NCBI RefSeq assembly: GCF_019375555.1
Contig: NZ_JAHXDN010000002.1
Location: 1 to 64,000 of the forward strand
Origin: Roseobacter insulae
GTDB lineage: Bacteria; Pseudomonadota; Alphaproteobacteria; Rhodobacterales; Rhodobacteraceae
Direction of reading: 5' to 3'
Length of the DNA: 64,000 bases
Made by a program: the position numbers and the translations under genes. Numbering within the stretch: the first letter of the stretch is position 1; each line of letters opens with the position of its first letter. The notes beneath the pieces were generated by a model. That model did no database searches. It was not told where the DNA came from and saw nothing but the letters and a program-made list of their open reading frames with translations. Below are positions 23,463 through 30,375 of the stretch, one piece after another.

Positions 23463-23687
23463 TAGCCTTCACTATGAAGCTGCGGTTAGGGGCCTATGAC
23501 GATTCGTGCAACAGATTTGTTCTGCCCCCGTCGTGAACTTCACGTGATGGGCGGAATTCTGGCATTTTTGCCACCATCGAAACGGGTGCGGCTACGACAA
23601 GCCGCGCGGGCGCAGGGCCACAATACCGTTCCTGTCTGATGCCAAGTGTGATTTGAAGGGGATGAAGGTGGCGCAGACGGGGTGACG

Positions 23688-24914
23688 ATGGATTTCTCTG
23701 GCGGTGAGAAGATTGCGGGATCAGGCTTGCAGCGGGTTTGTTCCGCTGAAGAAACACTGGCGCGGATTCTGCCGATCAAGCATAAGTTCGGCATTACGCG
23801 GGTGGCGAATGTCACCGGTCTCGACAGGATATTTCTGCCCGTTGTCATGGCCATCCGCCCAAATGCCCGGTCCATCGCGATTTCGCAGGGTAAAGGCACG
23901 ACGCTGGCGCATGCCAAGGCTTCCGCCCTTATGGAAGCCATTGAAATCTGGCACGCGGAACATGTCGACCGCGAGGTGTATTTCGCAAGTGCCGACGACC
24001 TCGCCGTCAAATATCGTTTTGTCGACCTCGACAGATTGCCTGCGACCCCCGACAAGGCCTTCAAGAGAACAATGAGAATGCATTGGGTTATGGCGCATGA
24101 TCTGATGAGCGGGCAGGAAAAACTGGTCCCGCTGGAGATGGTGCATGCCGATTACACGCATCCCGTATCGACCGATGCGGGAGTGTTCCCGGCCAGCACA
24201 AACGGGCTTGCGTCGGGCAACCACATTCTGGAAGCGGTTTGCCACGCCATTTGCGAAGTTATTGAGCGGGACGCCCTGGCGGTCTGGCACCATCAGCCGC
24301 AAGAAATACAAAGGGCCTCGCGCATCGATTTGTCCTCTATCGAGGACGTGGAACTCATTACCTCCCTGCGGAAGGTCGAAACGGCAGGTCTCGATTGCGC
24401 TGTCTGGGACGTGACCTCGGATGTGGGCGTCGCAACTTTCCTCTGCGTGATCACCGATCCGGCATCGCAGGGGGAGCATCTCGGCCTTGGGTCCGGGACG
24501 CATCCGAACCCAAAGGTCGCGTTGCACCGGGCGCTGAACGAGGCCGCACAGACCCGGCTCAACTACATTTCCGGCGCGCGAGAGGACCTGTTTCACATCG
24601 AGTACTCAGCGGATGGCCGCGATCAGAAGGTGGCGGCGTATTCCCACCTGTTTGGCGCGCAGCAGGATGTGCGGCCCTTTGCGGCCACTGCGGGTGTTGC
24701 CAACAGGGACCTGCGTCAGGATCTTGAGTGGCTCAAGGACCGATTGCGCGCAGCAGGTGTCGCCGAAGTGGCGGTTGCCGATCTCACGCGGGAAGACTGT
24801 CAAATTCCGGTCGTTCGGGTGATCATACCCGGGTTGGAAGCGCCGCACGATGATGACGCTTATGTGCCGGGCCTCAGGGTGCGCGGCCTGCAGGATCAAG
24901 GCATGGCCAAGTGA
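23688..24914 (+). CDS. YcaO-domain ATP-dependent peptide cyclodehydratase/thioamidase
   Basis: YcaO enzymes use ATP to activate backbone amides, giving azolines or, with TfuA, thioamides. In this protein of about 408 residues the ATP-site signature is present: QGKG at 67-70, SALMEAIEIWHAE at 79-91 and, later, STNGLASGNHILEA with CEVIERDA (E190, E193, R194, D195). The C-terminus lacks the proline-rich tail of azoline-forming YcaOs. It overlaps tfuA by four bases. That pair is the known signature of thioamide formation, as on methyl-coenzyme M reductase and thioviridamide-type peptides. No mcr gene is near, and a repeat-bearing small protein at 27093 is a candidate substrate. A GTG two codons upstream is an alternative start. 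Confidence 0.92.
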   Translation: MDFSGGEKIAGSGLQRVCSAEETLARILPIKHKFGITRVANVTGLDRIFLPVVMAIRPNARSIAISQGKGTTLAHAKASALMEAIEIWHAEHVDREVYFASADDLAVKYRFVDLDRLPATPDKAFKRTMRMHWVMAHDLMSGQEKLVPLEMVHADYTHPVSTDAGVFPASTNGLASGNHILEAVCHAICEVIERDALAVWHHQPQEIQRASRIDLSSIEDVELITSLRKVETAGLDCAVWDVTSDVGVATFLCVITDPASQGEHLGLGSGTHPNPKVALHRALNEAAQTRLNYISGAREDLFHIEYSADGRDQKVAAYSHLFGAQQDVRPFAATAGVANRDLRQDLEWLKDRLRAAGVAEVAVADLTREDCQIPVVRVIIPGLEAPHDDDAYVPGLRVRGLQDQGMAK

Positions 24915-25684
24915 TCGTTTTCGCAGGTCCCTCGATTGCCGGAATTGACCCTGCCCTGACCGACGGTTTTGATCTCCGCCCGCCGGCTCAGCAGGGCGAT
25001 GTCTTTCTGGCCGCGCTCGATCAGCCTTTGGTGATCGGCATTATCGACGGGTATTTCGAAGGCGTCCCTTCGGTCTGGCACAAGGAAATTCTTTGGGCAT
25101 TGTCTCGGGGCATTGCGGTCTGTGGCGCATCCAGCATGGGGGCCTTGCGTGCCGCCGAACTCGACAGCTTCGGCATGCGCGGGACGGGAGAAATATACGC
25201 AGCTTACCGGGATGGCGTGTTGGAGGATGACGACGAGGTTGCTCTTTTGCACGGTCCTGCGGAGCTTGGATACCCGGGTCTGTCGCTTGCGATGGTCAAT
25301 GTCCGGGCAACGGTCGATGCAGCCCGGACTGACGGCATCGTTACCTCCAGACAGGCTGGGCTTCTGAAGGATGTCGCAAAATCGCAGTTTTACAAATCTC
25401 GTACATGGCACAGCATCCTGGCGGAAATTAACATTCAAGACTTGCCAAAAGATGCGAATACCGCGTTGCGCAGCTGGCTTGGAGAAAACGAGGTTGATCA
25501 AAAGAAGCTGGACGCGGCGGATCTGTTGACGCAGCTCTCTGACGGGGCGTTTTCGTCCTCAAGCGTCGATTTTCATTTTGAAGAAACGGACCTGTGGATC
25601 ACAGCGACACACACTTGGCGGCGCAGACGTCACACAGAACCCGAGACCGAGAGAGCCGGATACAGTTTGCTGGGTGGGTTATGA
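24911..25684 (+). CDS. tfuA: TfuA-like partner of YcaO
   Basis: TfuA-like proteins partner with YcaO enzymes in backbone thioamidation. This 257-residue protein has the TfuA core: IGIIDGYFEGVPSVWHKEIL (residues 42-61), GASSMGALRAAEL (72-84), and a GMRGTGEIYAAYRDG motif (88-102) followed by DDDEVALLHGPAELGY. The C-terminal 80 residues are less conserved and helical. It overlaps the ycaO stop by ATGA, indicating coupled translation. The name comes from the trifolitoxin locus of Rhizobium. The metallopeptidase begins 75 bases downstream. Confidence 0.92.
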   Translation: MIVFAGPSIAGIDPALTDGFDLRPPAQQGDVFLAALDQPLVIGIIDGYFEGVPSVWHKEILWALSRGIAVCGASSMGALRAAELDSFGMRGTGEIYAAYRDGVLEDDDEVALLHGPAELGYPGLSLAMVNVRATVDAARTDGIVTSRQAGLLKDVAKSQFYKSRTWHSILAEINIQDLPKDANTALRSWLGENEVDQKKLDAADLLTQLSDGAFSSSSVDFHFEETDLWITATHTWRRRRHTEPETERAGYSLLGGL

Positions 25685-25759
25685 GCCATCGGCGAATAGA
25701 CTGGTCGGAAGATTTGCTGTAGCCATATCGGGCCAACAGGTGATTGCGGGGTCGACGTC

Positions 25760-27016
25760 ATGGAAGGAACGCGTTTCAAGCTGTTTCCTCAGCCACAGTT
25801 TCTGGACAGTTATGCAGAGCCTGAGACGGTAGTTGTATCCTCCGTGGCGGGCTCGCTTGGGCCGGGTCCGTCGGATGACCGGATGTACACCATCTTTCCG
25901 ATTGGCAAGAAACAGCCCTACGGCATCTCCCCGGACGGGTCTGACGTGCAAGCGCCGCCGTGGTCGGGAGATGTCGAAGCCCCCGCCGTTCCGGATGCAG
26001 ATGGACATTTTGACTATCTGGAACCGGGCACGCCGCAGTTCGAGACCGCACATCTGTTCGGCACGGTCCGGTTTGTAATGGACATCTGGGAGGATTACTT
26101 CGGCAGGGTCATTCCGTGGCAAAGCGACAAGACGCATGATCGTTTGGAACTGACCATCCTGCCGTCGCTTGAGAATGCCTATTCCGGCTATGGCTTCATC
26201 GAAATGGGCGGTGATCGCAAAAATGGCGGTTACAAACCGTTCAGCCTGAATTTCGATGTGATCGCGCATGAATTGGGTCACGCGATCATCTATTCGGAGG
26301 TTGGGGTGCCTGATCCGCAGAACGTGACCGGGGAGTATTTCGGCTTTCATGAAAGTGCGGCCGATCTGGTGGCATTGGTATCGTCGCTTCATTTCAATTC
26401 GCTGGTTGATCTGCTGCTCGAAAACACGCGCGGCAATCTCTACATGCTGAATGCGGTCAACCGGATTGCGGAACTCTCCGACAACAAGCAGATCAGGATT
26501 GCCGCCAACGACAAACGCCTGGGCGAGTTTGCCAAGGGATGGGTGAAGGAGCACCACCTGTCACAACCCCTGACCGGCGCGTTTTTCGATATCCTCGTGG
26601 ATCTGTTCCACGAAATGCTGCTTGATTATGGGGCGATCTCGCCGGAAATGGAGGATCTGTCGGATCAGCTGCTGGCCACATCTGAATATGCGCCGGTCAT
26701 GCAGGAACTGTTTGATGACGCGTATGCCGCACATCCGGAAAAGTTCAAGATGGCACTGCTGGACGCCCGGGATATTCTGGGCACATATCTTGCCGACACC
26801 TGGCAGAAGATAAACCGGCGTGATCTCAACTTTGTGGACGTCGCGGAGATTTTTCTGGAAGTGGATCAAGAGCACACGGGTGGGCGATTTGAACGCCTGA
26901 TCCGCGGAAACTTCGATTTGCGCGACATCGGTTTTGTCGAAGTGGGCCCACAGTTGGAACCGCTTGGGAAAGACAGTCACGCAAACTCCGTGCGGACCAT
27001 GGTTCCAATGGACTGA
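25760..27016 (+). CDS. Cytosolic gluzincin-type metallopeptidase of the YcaO/TfuA locus
   Basis: This 418-residue protein has a zinc peptidase site: HELGH at residues 170-174 (zinc ligands H170 and H174, catalytic E171) and, 24 residues on, HESAAD with third ligand E198 and D202. HExxH plus ExxxD is the thermolysin-like gluzincin pattern, but the rest does not look like a standard secreted M4 enzyme. There is no signal peptide, propeptide or membrane segment, so it should act in the cytosol. Its place between tfuA and the SGAR-repeat protein suggests a maturation or leader protease; that is inference. No strong ribosome site is seen at 25760, so the start is less certain than the frame. Confidence 0.75.
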   Translation: MEGTRFKLFPQPQFLDSYAEPETVVVSSVAGSLGPGPSDDRMYTIFPIGKKQPYGISPDGSDVQAPPWSGDVEAPAVPDADGHFDYLEPGTPQFETAHLFGTVRFVMDIWEDYFGRVIPWQSDKTHDRLELTILPSLENAYSGYGFIEMGGDRKNGGYKPFSLNFDVIAHELGHAIIYSEVGVPDPQNVTGEYFGFHESAADLVALVSSLHFNSLVDLLLENTRGNLYMLNAVNRIAELSDNKQIRIAANDKRLGEFAKGWVKEHHLSQPLTGAFFDILVDLFHEMLLDYGAISPEMEDLSDQLLATSEYAPVMQELFDDAYAAHPEKFKMALLDARDILGTYLADTWQKINRRDLNFVDVAEIFLEVDQEHTGGRFERLIRGNFDLRDIGFVEVGPQLEPLGKDSHANSVRTMVPMD

Positions 27017-27092
27017 AAAAGAATAATGCGTTAACAAATAATTACAACCGACTGAACGGGAGCGAATTACGCTCTTCAAAGGATCAAATATT

Positions 27093-27590
27093 ATGTCAGA
27101 ATCACTATATGCATCCGCATCCATCGTATTATTCGGACGCGAAGTCGACGACTTGGCCGTCATCAAGAAGGGTTTGTCCACGGCCACTACATTCAGCAAA
27201 GAAGACAAGCAATTTGCGCGCATCTATGGCTTTACCTACGACGGCGTGTATTACGAAATTCCGACCCCGGTGCTCTTCATGGTAAAGGGCAAGGGGAAGA
27301 AGGCGAGCACAATTGACCTTCCCGGCCCGAACCCGAAAGAAGCGAAATTCTTCGCCAGCCTGCTGGCCTGGGAAGTGAAACAATCCGAAGACACGGTTCG
27401 GCTCGACGTGGATCAGGGCAAATTCCAGGACATGCTGCTGAGCATGCTGGGCGATGGCGTAAGCGGTGTTTCGGGTGCACGTGTTTCTGGTGCCCGAGTA
27501 TCCGGTGCCCGGGTGTCCGGCGCGCGGGTGTCGGGTGCACGTGTCTCCGGCGCGCGGATCAGCGGTGCACGGGGAGATGCCAGCGACTAG
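27093..27590 (+). CDS. Putative precursor protein with a C-terminal (V/I)SGAR repeat
   Basis: I do not recognise this 165-residue protein. The first 122 residues look globular (MSESLYASASIVLFGREVDD, then YGFTYDGVYYEIPTPVLFMV). Residues 123-160 are VSG followed by six VSGAR and one ISGAR, ending in GDASD. There is no signal peptide or cysteine. It is the last plus-strand gene after ycaO, tfuA and the metallopeptidase, 76 bases downstream, with an AAAGGAT ribosome site. A globular leader-like domain plus a short tandem core beside a YcaO/TfuA pair suggests a modified peptide precursor. The repeats lack Cys, Ser-Cys or Thr-rich patterns of azole substrates, but thioamidation acts on plain backbone amides. 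The precursor role is inference; it could also be a structural tail protein. Confidence 0.7.
   Translation: MSESLYASASIVLFGREVDDLAVIKKGLSTATTFSKEDKQFARIYGFTYDGVYYEIPTPVLFMVKGKGKKASTIDLPGPNPKEAKFFASLLAWEVKQSEDTVRLDVDQGKFQDMLLSMLGDGVSGVSGARVSGARVSGARVSGARVSGARVSGARISGARGDASD
27459..27572 (+). repeat. Tandem 15-base repeat encoding (V/I)SGAR
   Basis: After a partial unit encoding VSG at 27459-27467, seven 15-base units run without gaps from 27468 to 27572. Each encodes Val or Ile, then Ser-Gly-Ala-Arg. The codons differ freely between units (Val as GTT, GTA, GTG, GTC; Arg as CGT, CGA, CGG; Ser as TCG, TCT, TCC, AGC), while Ser, Gly, Ala and Arg are identical in all seven. Selection therefore appears to act on the peptide, not the DNA. 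Confidence 0.93.
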
Positions 27591-27606: not shown

Positions 27607-29397
27607 CTACAGACCGGCGCGTTTCAACCCGTCCAGAAAGTGCTGCACATCTTCCTCGAACTTGTCGGGCTGCACCGAGGCCCAACGATCAACTGAAAAA
27701 TTCGGATGAGCCTGCCGCACAAGTTCGGCTTGTGCGCGGGCCTCTTTCAGTTTTCCCAGATGCCCGTAGCTGGCGGCAAGAATCCGTCTGCCTTCGGTCG
27801 GATTCTGCATTTTCTGGATCGTATTGATCGCTTCTTCGTAGCGTTTGAGATTGAAGTAAGCGCCGCCCAGATGCCAGATGTACTGGTCCGGGTAAAAGGG
27901 GTTGAGACGCATCGCCTTGTGCAGCAGTTCGACCGCTTCTTCCGACCGGCCCATATGGGCAAGCGCATCGGCCATATCAGACATCAGGTCAGCGTCATTC
28001 GGATTGAGCTTCAGCGCGCGGTCGTAGGCATTGATCGCGGCGTCATGCTCCTTGCGATAGAGATGGGCAAAGCCCAGCTCACCGAACCCACGGGCATCGG
28101 ATTCGTCAAGATCGATGGCTTCGCGCGCAAAACTCAGGGCATCGTCCAATGCAATTTCGGGCTTTTCCGCCCAGTCATAGCGCCAATCAAGATTGAAGGT
28201 GCGGGACTTGGCGGCGTAGGCGCGGGCGTATCGCGCGTCGCTGCCGATCGCGTGTTCGTAAAGGTCACGCGCCTGGCGGACCTCGGGCTGAGTGTACTTG
28301 AGCACATGTCTGTGGCCCTTCAGAACAAAGCCGTAAGCCATCAGGTTGGCCGGAGGCAGCAAACGCATCCGCTCGCGCTCCGTGGCCTCGATCCGGGCGG
28401 CCGTTGCCGACACGATGATCTGGGTGATCTCATCCTGCAGATCAAAAATGTCTTCGACGTTGCGATTGTACTGATCGCCCCAGATCGTTCTGTCCTGAAG
28501 CGCGTCCAGCAGTTGCAGCGTGATGCGTATCCGCGACCCTGCCTTTCGCACCGTCCCGTCGACTGCGTAGCGCACACCCAGTTCGCGCGCCGCCTGAGCC
28601 GGGGATTTCGATCTGTCGGAAAACATGTTGGCAGAGCCGCGGGCAATGACGAAAAACTCCTGGAAGCGTGACAGGTTGGTTGTCACGTCTTCGGTCAGAC
28701 CATCCGCGAACCACTGGTCGTCCTGATCACTGCCCTGGAACCCGAAGGGCAACACGACGATGGACTGATTGGCAATCGGGCGTTCCTTGAATTCCGCCGA
28801 GTTTTCGAGATTGCGGCGCAACCCCGGGGTCATCGCCGCGGTGGTAGGATTTTCATGAACCTGGAAAACGTCGATTGTCCGGCCGATATTCTTGAAATCC
28901 TGACCGCCAAGGTACTCGTAGCCGTACTTCAGCTTGTTGCACACGTGATCATAGGCCGCGCCGGAGATGCAGACCTGCCCGGGGGCCGCAAAGGCTTCGA
29001 TCCGGGCCGCGATGTTGATGCTTTCCCCGGTGATCTCGTCGCCGCTCACCAGTACTTCGCCCAAGTTGATGCCGAAACGGAACCAGACTTTCTCGTCGTC
29101 CGGCAGCCCTTCGTTTTCATCAGCGAGGATTTTTTGCATTTCGACGGCGAAGGTCACCGCATCGACGGCGCTTTCAAATAGCATGAAGGCATTGTCACCC
29201 GCGGAGCCCTTGAATTCGCCGGAATATGAATTGATCGCGTCGCGAAATTTTTCCAGACGGTTCGTGACAGAAATCGTTGTGCCCACTTCATCAACACTCA
29301 TCATGCTGCTAAAATTGGCCACATCAGCAAAAACGATCGCAACAAGGCGACGCCTCAGGCCTCTTCCGGAACCTGATTTTTGAGCGGTACTATCCAC
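27607..29397 (-). CDS. Class III nucleotide cyclase with TolB-like domain and TPR repeats
   Basis: This protein of about 596 residues has three parts. An N-terminal class III cyclase domain has metal-binding aspartates in VAIVFADVANFS and KGSAGDNAFMLF, plus GINLGEVLVSGDEITGESIN. A middle TolB/CadC-like domain includes SIVVLPFGFQGSDQDDQWFA and GTVRKAGSRIRITLQLLDA. A C-terminal region has TPR units such as HDAAINAYDRALKLNPNDAD and EEAVELLHKAMRLNPFYP. No membrane segment is seen. The usual product would be cyclic AMP. A GTG at 29397 overlaps the upstream GNAT stop by 8 bases and is preferred; a TTG at 29457 is possible. It is convergent with the SGAR-repeat gene, 16 bases apart, so it is not in the same transcript. 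Confidence 0.85.
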   Translation of the reverse strand: MDSTAQKSGSGRGLRRRLVAIVFADVANFSSMMSVDEVGTTISVTNRLEKFRDAINSYSGEFKGSAGDNAFMLFESAVDAVTFAVEMQKILADENEGLPDDEKVWFRFGINLGEVLVSGDEITGESINIAARIEAFAAPGQVCISGAAYDHVCNKLKYGYEYLGGQDFKNIGRTIDVFQVHENPTTAAMTPGLRRNLENSAEFKERPIANQSIVVLPFGFQGSDQDDQWFADGLTEDVTTNLSRFQEFFVIARGSANMFSDRSKSPAQAARELGVRYAVDGTVRKAGSRIRITLQLLDALQDRTIWGDQYNRNVEDIFDLQDEITQIIVSATAARIEATERERMRLLPPANLMAYGFVLKGHRHVLKYTQPEVRQARDLYEHAIGSDARYARAYAAKSRTFNLDWRYDWAEKPEIALDDALSFAREAIDLDESDARGFGELGFAHLYRKEHDAAINAYDRALKLNPNDADLMSDMADALAHMGRSEEAVELLHKAMRLNPFYPDQYIWHLGGAYFNLKRYEEAINTIQKMQNPTEGRRILAASYGHLGKLKEARAQAELVRQAHPNFSVDRWASVQPDKFEEDVQHFLDGLKRAGL

Positions 29398-30010
29398 AAC
29401 CCTCTTTCCAACACGTAGGTGCAAACGACAGCTTGCAGGAATCTGCCACTTTTTCAATGACCTGATGCCGCGTGGCTAACCATTCCGCGCTCAAAATACC
29501 AGCTACTACGGTATCTTTTCTTTCGCCGTTTACAAACCAGCCCTCACGAAAGCGTCCTTCTTCCGCAAAACCAATCTTTTTTACAGCGCGCATCGTGGCC
29601 GTGTTGTCGTCTCTGTAGAATGTGGACACCCGGTGCAGGCGCAGTTGCGAAAATGCCAGATCCAGTACGGAAATGGTCATCGCGGTCGCCAACCCCTGCT
29701 TGCGGTGATCCCTGCCCACAAAGAACGGCAGAACCGCGTCCCCCTGAATGTAGTTGACCGAATCCAGCCCGGCAATTCCAAGAGGCGTGCCGCTCGTGTC
29801 CTCGGCAATGAACCAGTAGGCGCAGGGCGGGGTATCGTGCTCCAGCGATTTGCGCCAGCTGTTTTGCAAGGAATCAGGGCTCAGCGGGACGGGGAGTGTT
29901 CTGTCGAAAAGCGCCACATCCGCGAAATTCCAGAACCAGTTTTCGATCCGGGGAATGTCAACCAGTCCGAGAGGGCGCCATGTGATCGCACCTGAAATTC
30001 TATTCGCCAT
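29390..30010 (-). CDS. GNAT acetyltransferase (RimJ/RimL type)
   Basis: This 206-residue protein matches the RimJ/RimL-type GNAT fold: ITWRPLGLVDIPRIENWF at the N-terminus, AVLPFFVGRDHRKQGLATAM as the acetyl-CoA pyrophosphate loop, and TATMRAVKKIGFAEEGRFRE as the last motif. Such enzymes acetylate amino groups of proteins or small molecules; the acceptor is unknown. The ATG at 30010 has an AGGA site eight bases upstream; an in-frame start at 30052 does not. It overlaps the cyclase start and is probably co-transcribed with it. Confidence 0.85.
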   Translation of the reverse strand: MANRISGAITWRPLGLVDIPRIENWFWNFADVALFDRTLPVPLSPDSLQNSWRKSLEHDTPPCAYWFIAEDTSGTPLGIAGLDSVNYIQGDAVLPFFVGRDHRKQGLATAMTISVLDLAFSQLRLHRVSTFYRDDNTATMRAVKKIGFAEEGRFREGWFVNGERKDTVVAGILSAEWLATRHQVIEKVADSCKLSFAPTCWKEGCG

Positions 30011-30375
30011 TTTCAATATCCTACCAACCGAGTTCTGAATTTTAATCGCCAAGCGCTTGTGAACGGCGGCGAATGAGCTCGGCCAAAAAAGTACAATTAA
30101 CTGGTTAACAAGAATTCTTACTACCGTACCCGCGTGAAAAGCAATGAATTTGCACGCCTAATACTAGAATTCGGTTTGGCCTTGCCGGTCGCAATGCCGT
30201 CTTTGTGCCGGTCGGCCCTCGCCTGTATCGGGGTGGTTTTTCGCGCGTTTCAACAAGGACCGGAAACCGGAGACATCTGCGTGAAAGCGCGCGTCGGCAG
30301 GCGCTCAGACATGGCTCGCCGATCTTTTCCCACATCCGCGGTCAGACAAAGGTGAATGCAAGCATGCGCCCGGCA
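30011..30375. other. Intergenic region upstream of the GNAT gene
   Basis: This gap of about 365 bases holds no gene I can support. Near the GNAT side is an AT-rich stretch with two short palindromes, TTAACTGGTTAA at 30097-30108 and AAGAATTCTT at 30110-30119, likely within the GNAT promoter area. The remainder, toward the tetR stop, has no visible structure. Confidence 0.4.

Follow-up and report, generated by a model that had tools for sequence, protein, structure and literature searches.

A conserved YcaO/TfuA cassette with a repeat-tailed putative precursor: a probable new thioamide peptide family beside a nucleotide-cyclase gene

The window studied here, a stretch of 64,000 nucleotides from the alphaproteobacterium Roseobacter insulae (contig NZ_JAHXDN010000002.1, positions 1 to 64,000), carries in a row on its forward strand ycaO, tfuA, a metallopeptidase gene and a gene for a repeat-tailed protein, which we call Rep. 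Comparison of sequences indicates that these four genes form a real cassette, and the cassette recurs in numerous bacteria of marine and soil origin, in most cases next to a gene with a cyclase domain. With a probability of roughly 0.6, we propose that the locus encodes a multi-copy peptide system in which YcaO and TfuA would place thioamides in Rep as the precursor, the peptidase would release the modified peptides, acetylation may follow, and a nucleotide cyclase would provide the output. Such a system would probably be a new thioamide family of ribosomally synthesized and post-translationally modified peptides (RiPPs), with a link to cyclic AMP (cAMP) that we infer from the linked cyclase gene.

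Results

A four-gene cassette conserved in order and strand

The initial annotation of this DNA had proposed an overlapping ycaO/tfuA pair, a metallopeptidase gene after it and a 165-residue protein with seven (V/I)SGAR units, and all of these are found. The ycaO gene (23682–24914; PF02624, E 2.6e-82), predicted to encode an ATP-dependent enzyme that activates backbone amides, starts upstream of the alternative in-frame ATG at 23688 that the annotation had used, and overlaps tfuA (24911–25684; PF07812, E 1.6e-46) by 4 nt (24911–24914). The peptidase gene follows at 25760–27016; its product contains a HELGH motif and, by eye, no signal peptide. After a gap of 76 nt, which is poorly conserved and in which no conserved hairpin was found in 9 aligned loci inspected by eye, comes the gene for Rep, the putative precursor (27093–27590, 165 aa).

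We collected 59 loci (handles beginning with L): the window, nine found by Rep searches (L001–L006, L061, L062 and L079) and 49 found by peptidase searches; of 129 plasmid records with a peptidase match, seven were fetched as peptidase hits. The record of L061 was reached by both routes, L110 and L004 are a single record, and the peptidases of L112 and L113 are nearly identical. Profiles identify YcaO in 53 loci, TfuA in 54, the peptidase in 57, Rep in 57 (the window included), a cyclase domain in 51 and a GNAT acetyltransferase in 27. All four core genes are present in 50 of the 57 Rep loci, and in every one of these 50 they lie on one strand in the order YcaO–TfuA–peptidase–Rep. Both YcaO and TfuA are found in 52 of the Rep loci (L061, L063, L104 and the contig-cut L109 lack them, and L068 lacks YcaO alone) and a peptidase gene in 55, in all 55 codirectional with Rep. 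The 49 peptidase-seeded loci contain Rep in 47 cases, the others being L064, which is cut by a contig end, and L074, which has none; both YcaO and TfuA are present in 44.

Conservation ends at six genes. We compared 59 chosen window open reading frames (ORFs) of at least 100 residues by tblastn with 27 other loci whose Rep tails consist of SGA(R/K) units (SGAR/K loci), leaving out L004, the same record as L110, and L018, which is contig-cut. YcaO, TfuA and the peptidase recurred in 27 of 27, the cyclase gene in 25 and a GNAT gene in 25; Rep recurred in 17 under a half-length rule and in all 27 by profile, and no other chosen ORF recurred in more than 5. The six named relatives from the first genome scan (four Roseobacter, one Nitratireductor and one Hoeflea) all have ycaO, tfuA, the peptidase gene and Rep, followed by a convergent cyclase-TPR gene and a GNAT gene.

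Peptidase matches were found in 8 of 394 genomes of the window's family, 21 of 292 in an order sample (3 weak), 13 of 337 in the class (6 weak), 8 of 249 in the phylum (2 weak) and 20 of 121 in family f166 (7 weak), as well as on the 129 plasmid records, 118 of them from Rhizobium and one from Nostoc. All strong genome matches fall within the window's class. The 18 weak matches were set aside; five that were inspected (L039–L041, which are short stretches, L072 and L073) contain no YcaO, TfuA or Rep match. A profile of the Rep N-terminal domain clearly matches 8 of 295 family genomes, the same 8 that have the peptidase, with one further marginal case; G218 (E 8e-4) was treated as a chance match. 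TfuA is present in 13 of 290 family genomes, including all 8 with Rep and peptidase.

Repeat units kept alike copy by copy

The seven pentapeptide units of Rep (six VSGAR and one ISGAR; residues 126–160, window 27468–27572) form the putative multi-copy core and are followed by a C-terminal GDASD (27573–27587), placed by the Rep alignment. The array stands far above background: the longest stretch in which each residue equals the one a fixed period earlier (period 4 to 8) is 25 in Rep and 5 in the next-best window ORF of at least 60 residues, and in 20 trinucleotide-shuffled windows the longest tandem run was 4 in 19 and 5 in one. The array is therefore not a chance product. Tandem Repeats Finder returned three rows for the window, all three describing this array. 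The initial annotation had regarded a Cys/Ser/Thr-rich core as absent, which needs correcting insofar as every unit holds one Ser.

At the DNA level all seven units are distinct, with a mean inter-unit identity of 0.71, and relative to the consensus unit there are 20 differences, 17 of them synonymous, against 16 of 45 for random changes (p = 8e-6). Since the units all differ in DNA and the changes are mostly synonymous, the array is not a fresh duplication. A wider census, which kept the unit register from the first unit to the last and imposed no residue beforehand, covered 198 SGAR/K units from 28 distinct tails. Position 1 is V in 174, I in 21, M in 2 and L in 1; the remaining positions are S in 191, G in 198, A in 197 and either R (118) or K (80). 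At this basic position none of the 30 SGAR/K loci mixes R and K within a gene, and genes of the two types are interleaved on the peptidase tree. Because this residue is uniform within each gene while the mean DNA identity between units of one gene is 0.74, all copies seem to be under one constraint. From these sequence comparisons, each unit is under selection copy by copy, and such uniformity seems to be what would be expected if every copy yielded the same product.

A conserved domain with an exchangeable tail

In the AlphaFold model of Rep, the mean predicted local distance difference test (pLDDT) of residue blocks is 78–93 up to about residue 120, except for residues 1–10 (56) and 21–40 (63–66), whereas residues 122–165 fall below 50, at about 38, and are predicted to be disordered; the overall predicted template modelling score is 0.57. 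Model confidence thus delimits an N-terminal domain of residues 1–121 (27093–27455), the putative leader. Searches of Pfam and NCBIfam with this domain gave no match over cut-off, and a search of PDB sequences gave none at E 0.1 (best 0.3). Foldseek comparison of the Rep fold with PDB structures and viral models gave none at E 0.001, a search made with the whole model, whose disordered tail may mask a weak match. Both family and fold searches therefore being empty, the domain appears to represent a new family.

The domain is recognised across all 57 Rep loci while the sequence and period of the tail vary. SGA(R/K) tails of 6 to 10 units are found in 30 loci. Other tails are SGGKAY repeated six times (L103), RAVMxS (RAVMAS) twelve times (L067), GMNV four times (L068), GMS(V/M/I) two to three times (Paracoccus L062 and L079), SRSGG three times (L061 and L063) and GRSSG five times (L104). 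L065 has an Arg-rich tail without repeats, and 18 loci carry a single conserved tail of the PGxRSPxxYA type (the RSPxxYA class). A domain that is kept while its tail is swapped fits a leader and a core. As an architecture, a conserved domain with an exchangeable tail is found across the 57 loci, in agreement with the modelled folded domain and disordered tail, and this supports the leader-like domain and core suggested by the initial annotation.

Some SGAK-type precursors (L011:2917-3798, L036:2906-3757 and L119:6484-7320) have an extra domain inserted after about residue 30 and similar to head-decoration or tail-fibre modules of phages (in L011, phrog_2647 at E 2.2e-7). One or two further small codirectional proteins follow Rep in L061 (8600-8932), L076 (8690-9085), L078 (8672-9040), L065 (9301-9783) and L020, all outside the SGAR/K class; the one scanned, in L061, gave no Pfam match.

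YcaO and TfuA resemble thioamide-forming relatives

The best NCBIfam model for the window YcaO is TIGR03266, for the YcaO of McrA-glycine thioamidation, at a score below the cut-off of that model, and its best solved relative is MJ1094 (E 1e-33). Likewise, TfuA best matches NF033432 (TfuA-related McrA-glycine thioamidation), again below cut-off, with 6xp8 as a solved relative (E 1.2e-33). Both proteins therefore appear nearest to thioamide-forming relatives. The window YcaO contains ALMEAIE, EVIERDA and EAAQTR, which we take to be its ATP-binding motifs; all three motifs were found by strict patterns in 31 of the 53 YcaO proteins, and the other 22 rest on the profile match.

Just past EAAQTR, residues 296–302 of YcaO (window 24567–24587) read ISGARED and resemble a repeat unit, possibly by coincidence. 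Among the 54 TfuA proteins, 19 (L101, L102, L103, L114–L124, L079 and others) are 429–454 residues long and have a C-terminal extension, which in L101, the single one scanned, gave no Pfam match. Ahead of a second YcaO/TfuA pair in genome G783 (L134, 6329-9184) lies an ORF of 74 residues, perhaps another kind of precursor.

A peptidase of predicted thermolysin-like fold

The Pfam matches of the peptidase all lie below threshold (M4, PF01447, E 0.06; 14.2 bits against a cut-off of 22.4). Its structure model has a mean pLDDT of 87, and the best Foldseek matches are M36 peptidases and thermolysin (E 8.6e-8 to about 1e-6); all 30 matches at E 0.001 or better are to thermolysin-like and M36 enzymes, at 8–14% identity. 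The HELGH motif (residues 170–174, window 26267–26281) would bind zinc: the alignment columns of its H, E, G and H are invariant, and H170, E171, H174, E198 and D202 are each invariant in 32 of 32 alignment rows. We conclude that the enzyme is predicted to adopt a thermolysin/M36 fold with HExxH and a downstream Glu.

Thermolysin-like enzymes cut before hydrophobic residues. In five of the seven repeat types, namely SGAR/K, RAVMAS, GMNV, GMSV and SRSGG, every unit contains V, I, L or M. A rule of cleavage before such a residue would suit the SGAR type of the window, but not every relative. On a Nostoc plasmid, a relative of the peptidase (L074, 6391-14154) has a radical SAM protein and two ferritin-like proteins as neighbours.

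Linked cyclase and GNAT genes

Two conserved partners had been overlooked by the initial annotation. The first, on the reverse strand and convergent with Rep (27607–29457), encodes a class III nucleotide-cyclase domain (PF00211, E 6.9e-8) and TPR repeats; the second, also on the reverse strand (29390–30052) and overlapping the cyclase gene, encodes a GNAT acetyltransferase (PF13302, E 5e-15). A cyclase domain is present in 51 of 57 Rep loci, and two of the six without it, L018 and L109, end at contig ends. Where found, it is convergent with Rep in 27 of 27 SGAR/K loci; it lies upstream in the same direction in 17 of 17 RSPxxYA loci and in three YcaO-less loci. TPR models match the cyclases of the window and of three others scanned, weakly in two. 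GNAT profiles match in 27 of 30 SGAR/K loci and in 0 of the 27 other Rep loci; the L078 record has an additional GNAT annotation at a greater distance.

A Crp/Fnr-type regulator is annotated near L079, and similar genes were seen by eye near L020–L022, L062 and L136. This neighbourhood and the cyclase linkage favour cAMP signalling over an ordinary antibiotic cluster: the linked cyclase points to cAMP, and a contact between peptide and cyclase would complete the link. In Azospirillum brasilense p1 (L136, 558-7517), a stretch with neither a Rep nor a peptidase match, YcaO and TfuA adjoin a gene with a cyclase domain and what by eye is a regulator of the Crp/Fnr type; the link to a cyclase is thus not confined to loci with the Rep precursor. 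A role as an anti-phage defence system was rejected, since PADLOC defence proteins gave no convincing match for five of six proteins and, for the sixth, weak cyclase/TPR matches alone (best E 0.0013).

Discussion

Proposed pathway

In the reading we favour, Rep would be the precursor, with its folded domain of about 120 residues as the recognition or leader part and its disordered tail as a string of pentapeptide cores. TfuA would deliver sulfur, and YcaO would activate one backbone amide per unit for conversion to a thioamide, the likeliest site being the invariant Gly of (V/I)SGA(R/K). The cytosolic thermolysin-like peptidase may then cut before the hydrophobic first residue, giving short thioamidated peptides such as VSGAR, whose new N-termini the linked GNAT may acetylate. 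The TPR cyclase would most likely sense or answer to the product, with a change in cAMP as the result.

A more specific form of this pathway is a peptide-gated cAMP switch, in which short, protease-resistant thioamidated peptides would control the linked cyclase by binding to its TPR domain. Different lineages would then exchange VSGAR, VSGAK, SGGKAY, GMSV, RAVMAS and RSPxxYA cores on one leader domain, and a Rhizobium branch would have dropped the thioamide step. We know of no thioamidated peptide that acts as an intracellular signal, and we hold this version to be tentative and on balance unlikely.

Exceptions to the linkage

Several observations weigh against the proposed pathway. L061 and L063 (Rhizobium plasmids) and L104 hold the cyclase, the peptidase and a repeat-tailed Rep with no local ycaO or tfuA; genome G1158, the source of L104 (88% complete), gave no YcaO or TfuA match genome-wide. 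Rep of the L063 type is found on 49 Rhizobium plasmid records, and a local ycaO/tfuA was not found in the four Rhizobium plasmids inspected (L061, L063, L143 and L144). In two Paracoccus loci the stretch contains ycaO, tfuA and Rep but lacks the peptidase, and 5 of the 13 TfuA genomes of the window's family lack a Rep or peptidase match. The Nostoc peptidase locus has no Rep, YcaO or TfuA nearby and perhaps comes from another system. A transporter is not part of the gene set conserved among the 27 SGAR/K loci compared. At the level of the units, RAVMAS contains no Gly, so Gly is not a universal site; the SGGKAY unit has Tyr alone and the GRSSG unit no hydrophobic residue, so cleavage before V, I, L or M cannot hold for all relatives; and in three SGAR genes (L001, L100 and L101) the array is followed by a degenerate unit that lacks the basic residue. 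In genome G805 the pair is split, TfuA lying beside the peptidase and Rep and the sole YcaO on another contig near a cyclase gene.

The initial annotation had asked whether the repeat gene always follows YcaO/TfuA in other genomes and had named a Rep widespread without the pair as the case that would speak against it. Rep does follow the pair in 50 of 50 four-gene loci, and 50 of 57 Rep loci keep the cassette; L061, L063 and L104, with no local pair, go the other way. Judged from gene order, the linkage of Rep with YcaO/TfuA seems a strong rule, not an absolute one. The constant order and the domain kept while tails are swapped lend good comparative support to Rep as the putative substrate proposed in that annotation, whereas the three pair-less loci count against this role.

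Alternative explanations

The tail might be thioamidated and never released, Rep acting as an intracellular regulator that docks to the cyclase TPR domain or to the peptidase, with the peptidase ending the signal. The frequency of the cyclase gene in Rep loci and its upstream, codirectional position in RSPxxYA and YcaO-less loci would suit such a regulator, as would the lack of a transporter in the conserved set; RSPxxYA tails, moreover, occur once per protein and are conserved, where an antibiotic core would diversify. Published work, to which we refer here and below as far as its accessible text goes, describes YcaO enzymes that can modify the folded proteins uL16 (PMC13063428) and McrA (PMC5589413). 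Yet units kept alike through synonymous drift and a basic residue uniform within each gene fit a released product better, and a peptidase gene is nearly always there (55 of 57 Rep loci). We regard a regulator with an unreleased tail as doubtful.

Less probable still, YcaO and TfuA could modify another target, with Rep as an unmodified partner such as a peptidase inhibitor or targeting subunit. Rep and the peptidase do persist without ycaO/tfuA in L061, L063 and L104, and the peptidase and Rep genes are the tightest pair, codirectional wherever both occur. However, a genome-wide search of the window's genome (G000) found one YcaO and one TfuA, both being the pair in this operon; Rep follows the pair in every four-gene locus; and the two Paracoccus loci keep ycaO, tfuA and Rep where the peptidase is missing.

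It is very improbable that YcaO forms an oxazoline at the Ser of each unit in place of a thioamide. YcaO enzymes of other RiPPs do so, and the Ser is present in 191 of 198 SGAR/K units; but a C-terminal PxPxP, which we take to be significant for this chemistry, is absent from all 53 YcaO proteins, no dehydrogenase or E1-like gene is among the six conserved genes, and the TfuA partner together with the best family models indicates thioamide formation. Least credible, and rejected, is an ordinary pentapeptide-repeat beta-helix protein with no tie to modification: a weak Pfam Pentapeptide score (PF00805, E 0.015; 15.3 bits against a cut-off of 20.2) and ARVSG in the tail, which we take to match an A(N/D)LxG-type register, speak for it, but the tail is predicted to be disordered, its seven units would presumably make under two turns of such a helix, and homologous tails have periods of 4, 6 or 7 or no repeat.

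Relation to known systems

The thioamitides, or thioviridamide group, resemble the window system in having a YcaO–TfuA pair in a peptide gene cluster. Thioamitides have short single-core precursors, macrocycles and other tailoring genes, and no such tailoring gene is among the six genes conserved here.

A closer case, and by our comparison the closest known, is thiovarsolin from Streptomyces varsoviensis (VarA/VarY/VarT), VarA and Rep being compared by description, not by sequence. Its precursor has repeated cores ending in Arg (APR and one GPR), YcaO and TfuA place the thioamide between Pro and Arg, and the products are short and N-acetylated (PMC6511847). varA, varY, varT and varO suffice for production (PMC6511847), so that a transporter gene is dispensable. 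Both systems share the YcaO and TfuA enzymes and repeated cores with a terminal Arg; multi-copy cores modified by YcaO/TfuA were already known (PMC6511847), while the Rep family appears new. Thiovarsolin differs in coming from Actinobacteria and in having imperfect repeats, up to five, whereas in the window system the repeats are near-perfect and the leader domain is long and folded; the Rep tails compared contain neither APR nor GPR repeats. In the accessible account, the thiovarsolin cluster has no specific protease, acetylation is ascribed to an unlinked host enzyme and no cyclase is mentioned (PMC6511847). The window system, by contrast, has its own peptidase, a cyclase and, in SGAR/K loci, its own GNAT in the conserved set.

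McrA glycine thioamidation in methanogens (PMC5589413) shares with the window its best family models, below cut-off, and a Gly as target; in McrA, a large enzyme, a single buried Gly is modified, whereas the putative target here is the tandem tail of a dedicated neighbour. Thioamidation of uL16 by the Escherichia coli YcaO likewise places a thioamide on a folded protein in Pseudomonadota, but that YcaO is TPR-containing and of another subfamily, with, as the accessible text has it, no TfuA and no neighbouring substrate gene (PMC13063428). The same 2026 paper reports that, outside high-sulfide settings, YcaOs that form thioamides tend to receive their sulfide through ThiS-type carriers and TfuA (PMC13063428), the mechanism we assume for the window system.

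An antiSMASH survey counted 2,326 TfuA-related clusters, over 500 of them in Rhizobium with adjacent ycaO and tfuA (PMC8120280), so some of the present loci have probably been counted already. The main text of that survey, as accessible, contains 'repeat', 'protease' and 'cyclase' 0 times each, names no repeat core and describes neither this precursor nor its peptidase or cyclase; in 2021, it states, all known YcaO–TfuA thioamidated peptides came from Actinobacteria (PMC8120280). Our literature search, whose reach excluded most subscription papers and all supplements, found no paper describing this cassette.

Significance

For Alphaproteobacteria, named genomes of Roseobacter, Hoeflea and Nitratireductor among them, the locus offers candidates for the substrate and for the maturation peptidase, together with a mass signature that can be predicted. 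The natural swapping of cores on one leader domain is what peptide engineers seek. Because a TPR cyclase is so regularly linked, what the peptide does for its producer can be tested directly, and the cassette may represent a new peptide family with a possible role in cell signalling.

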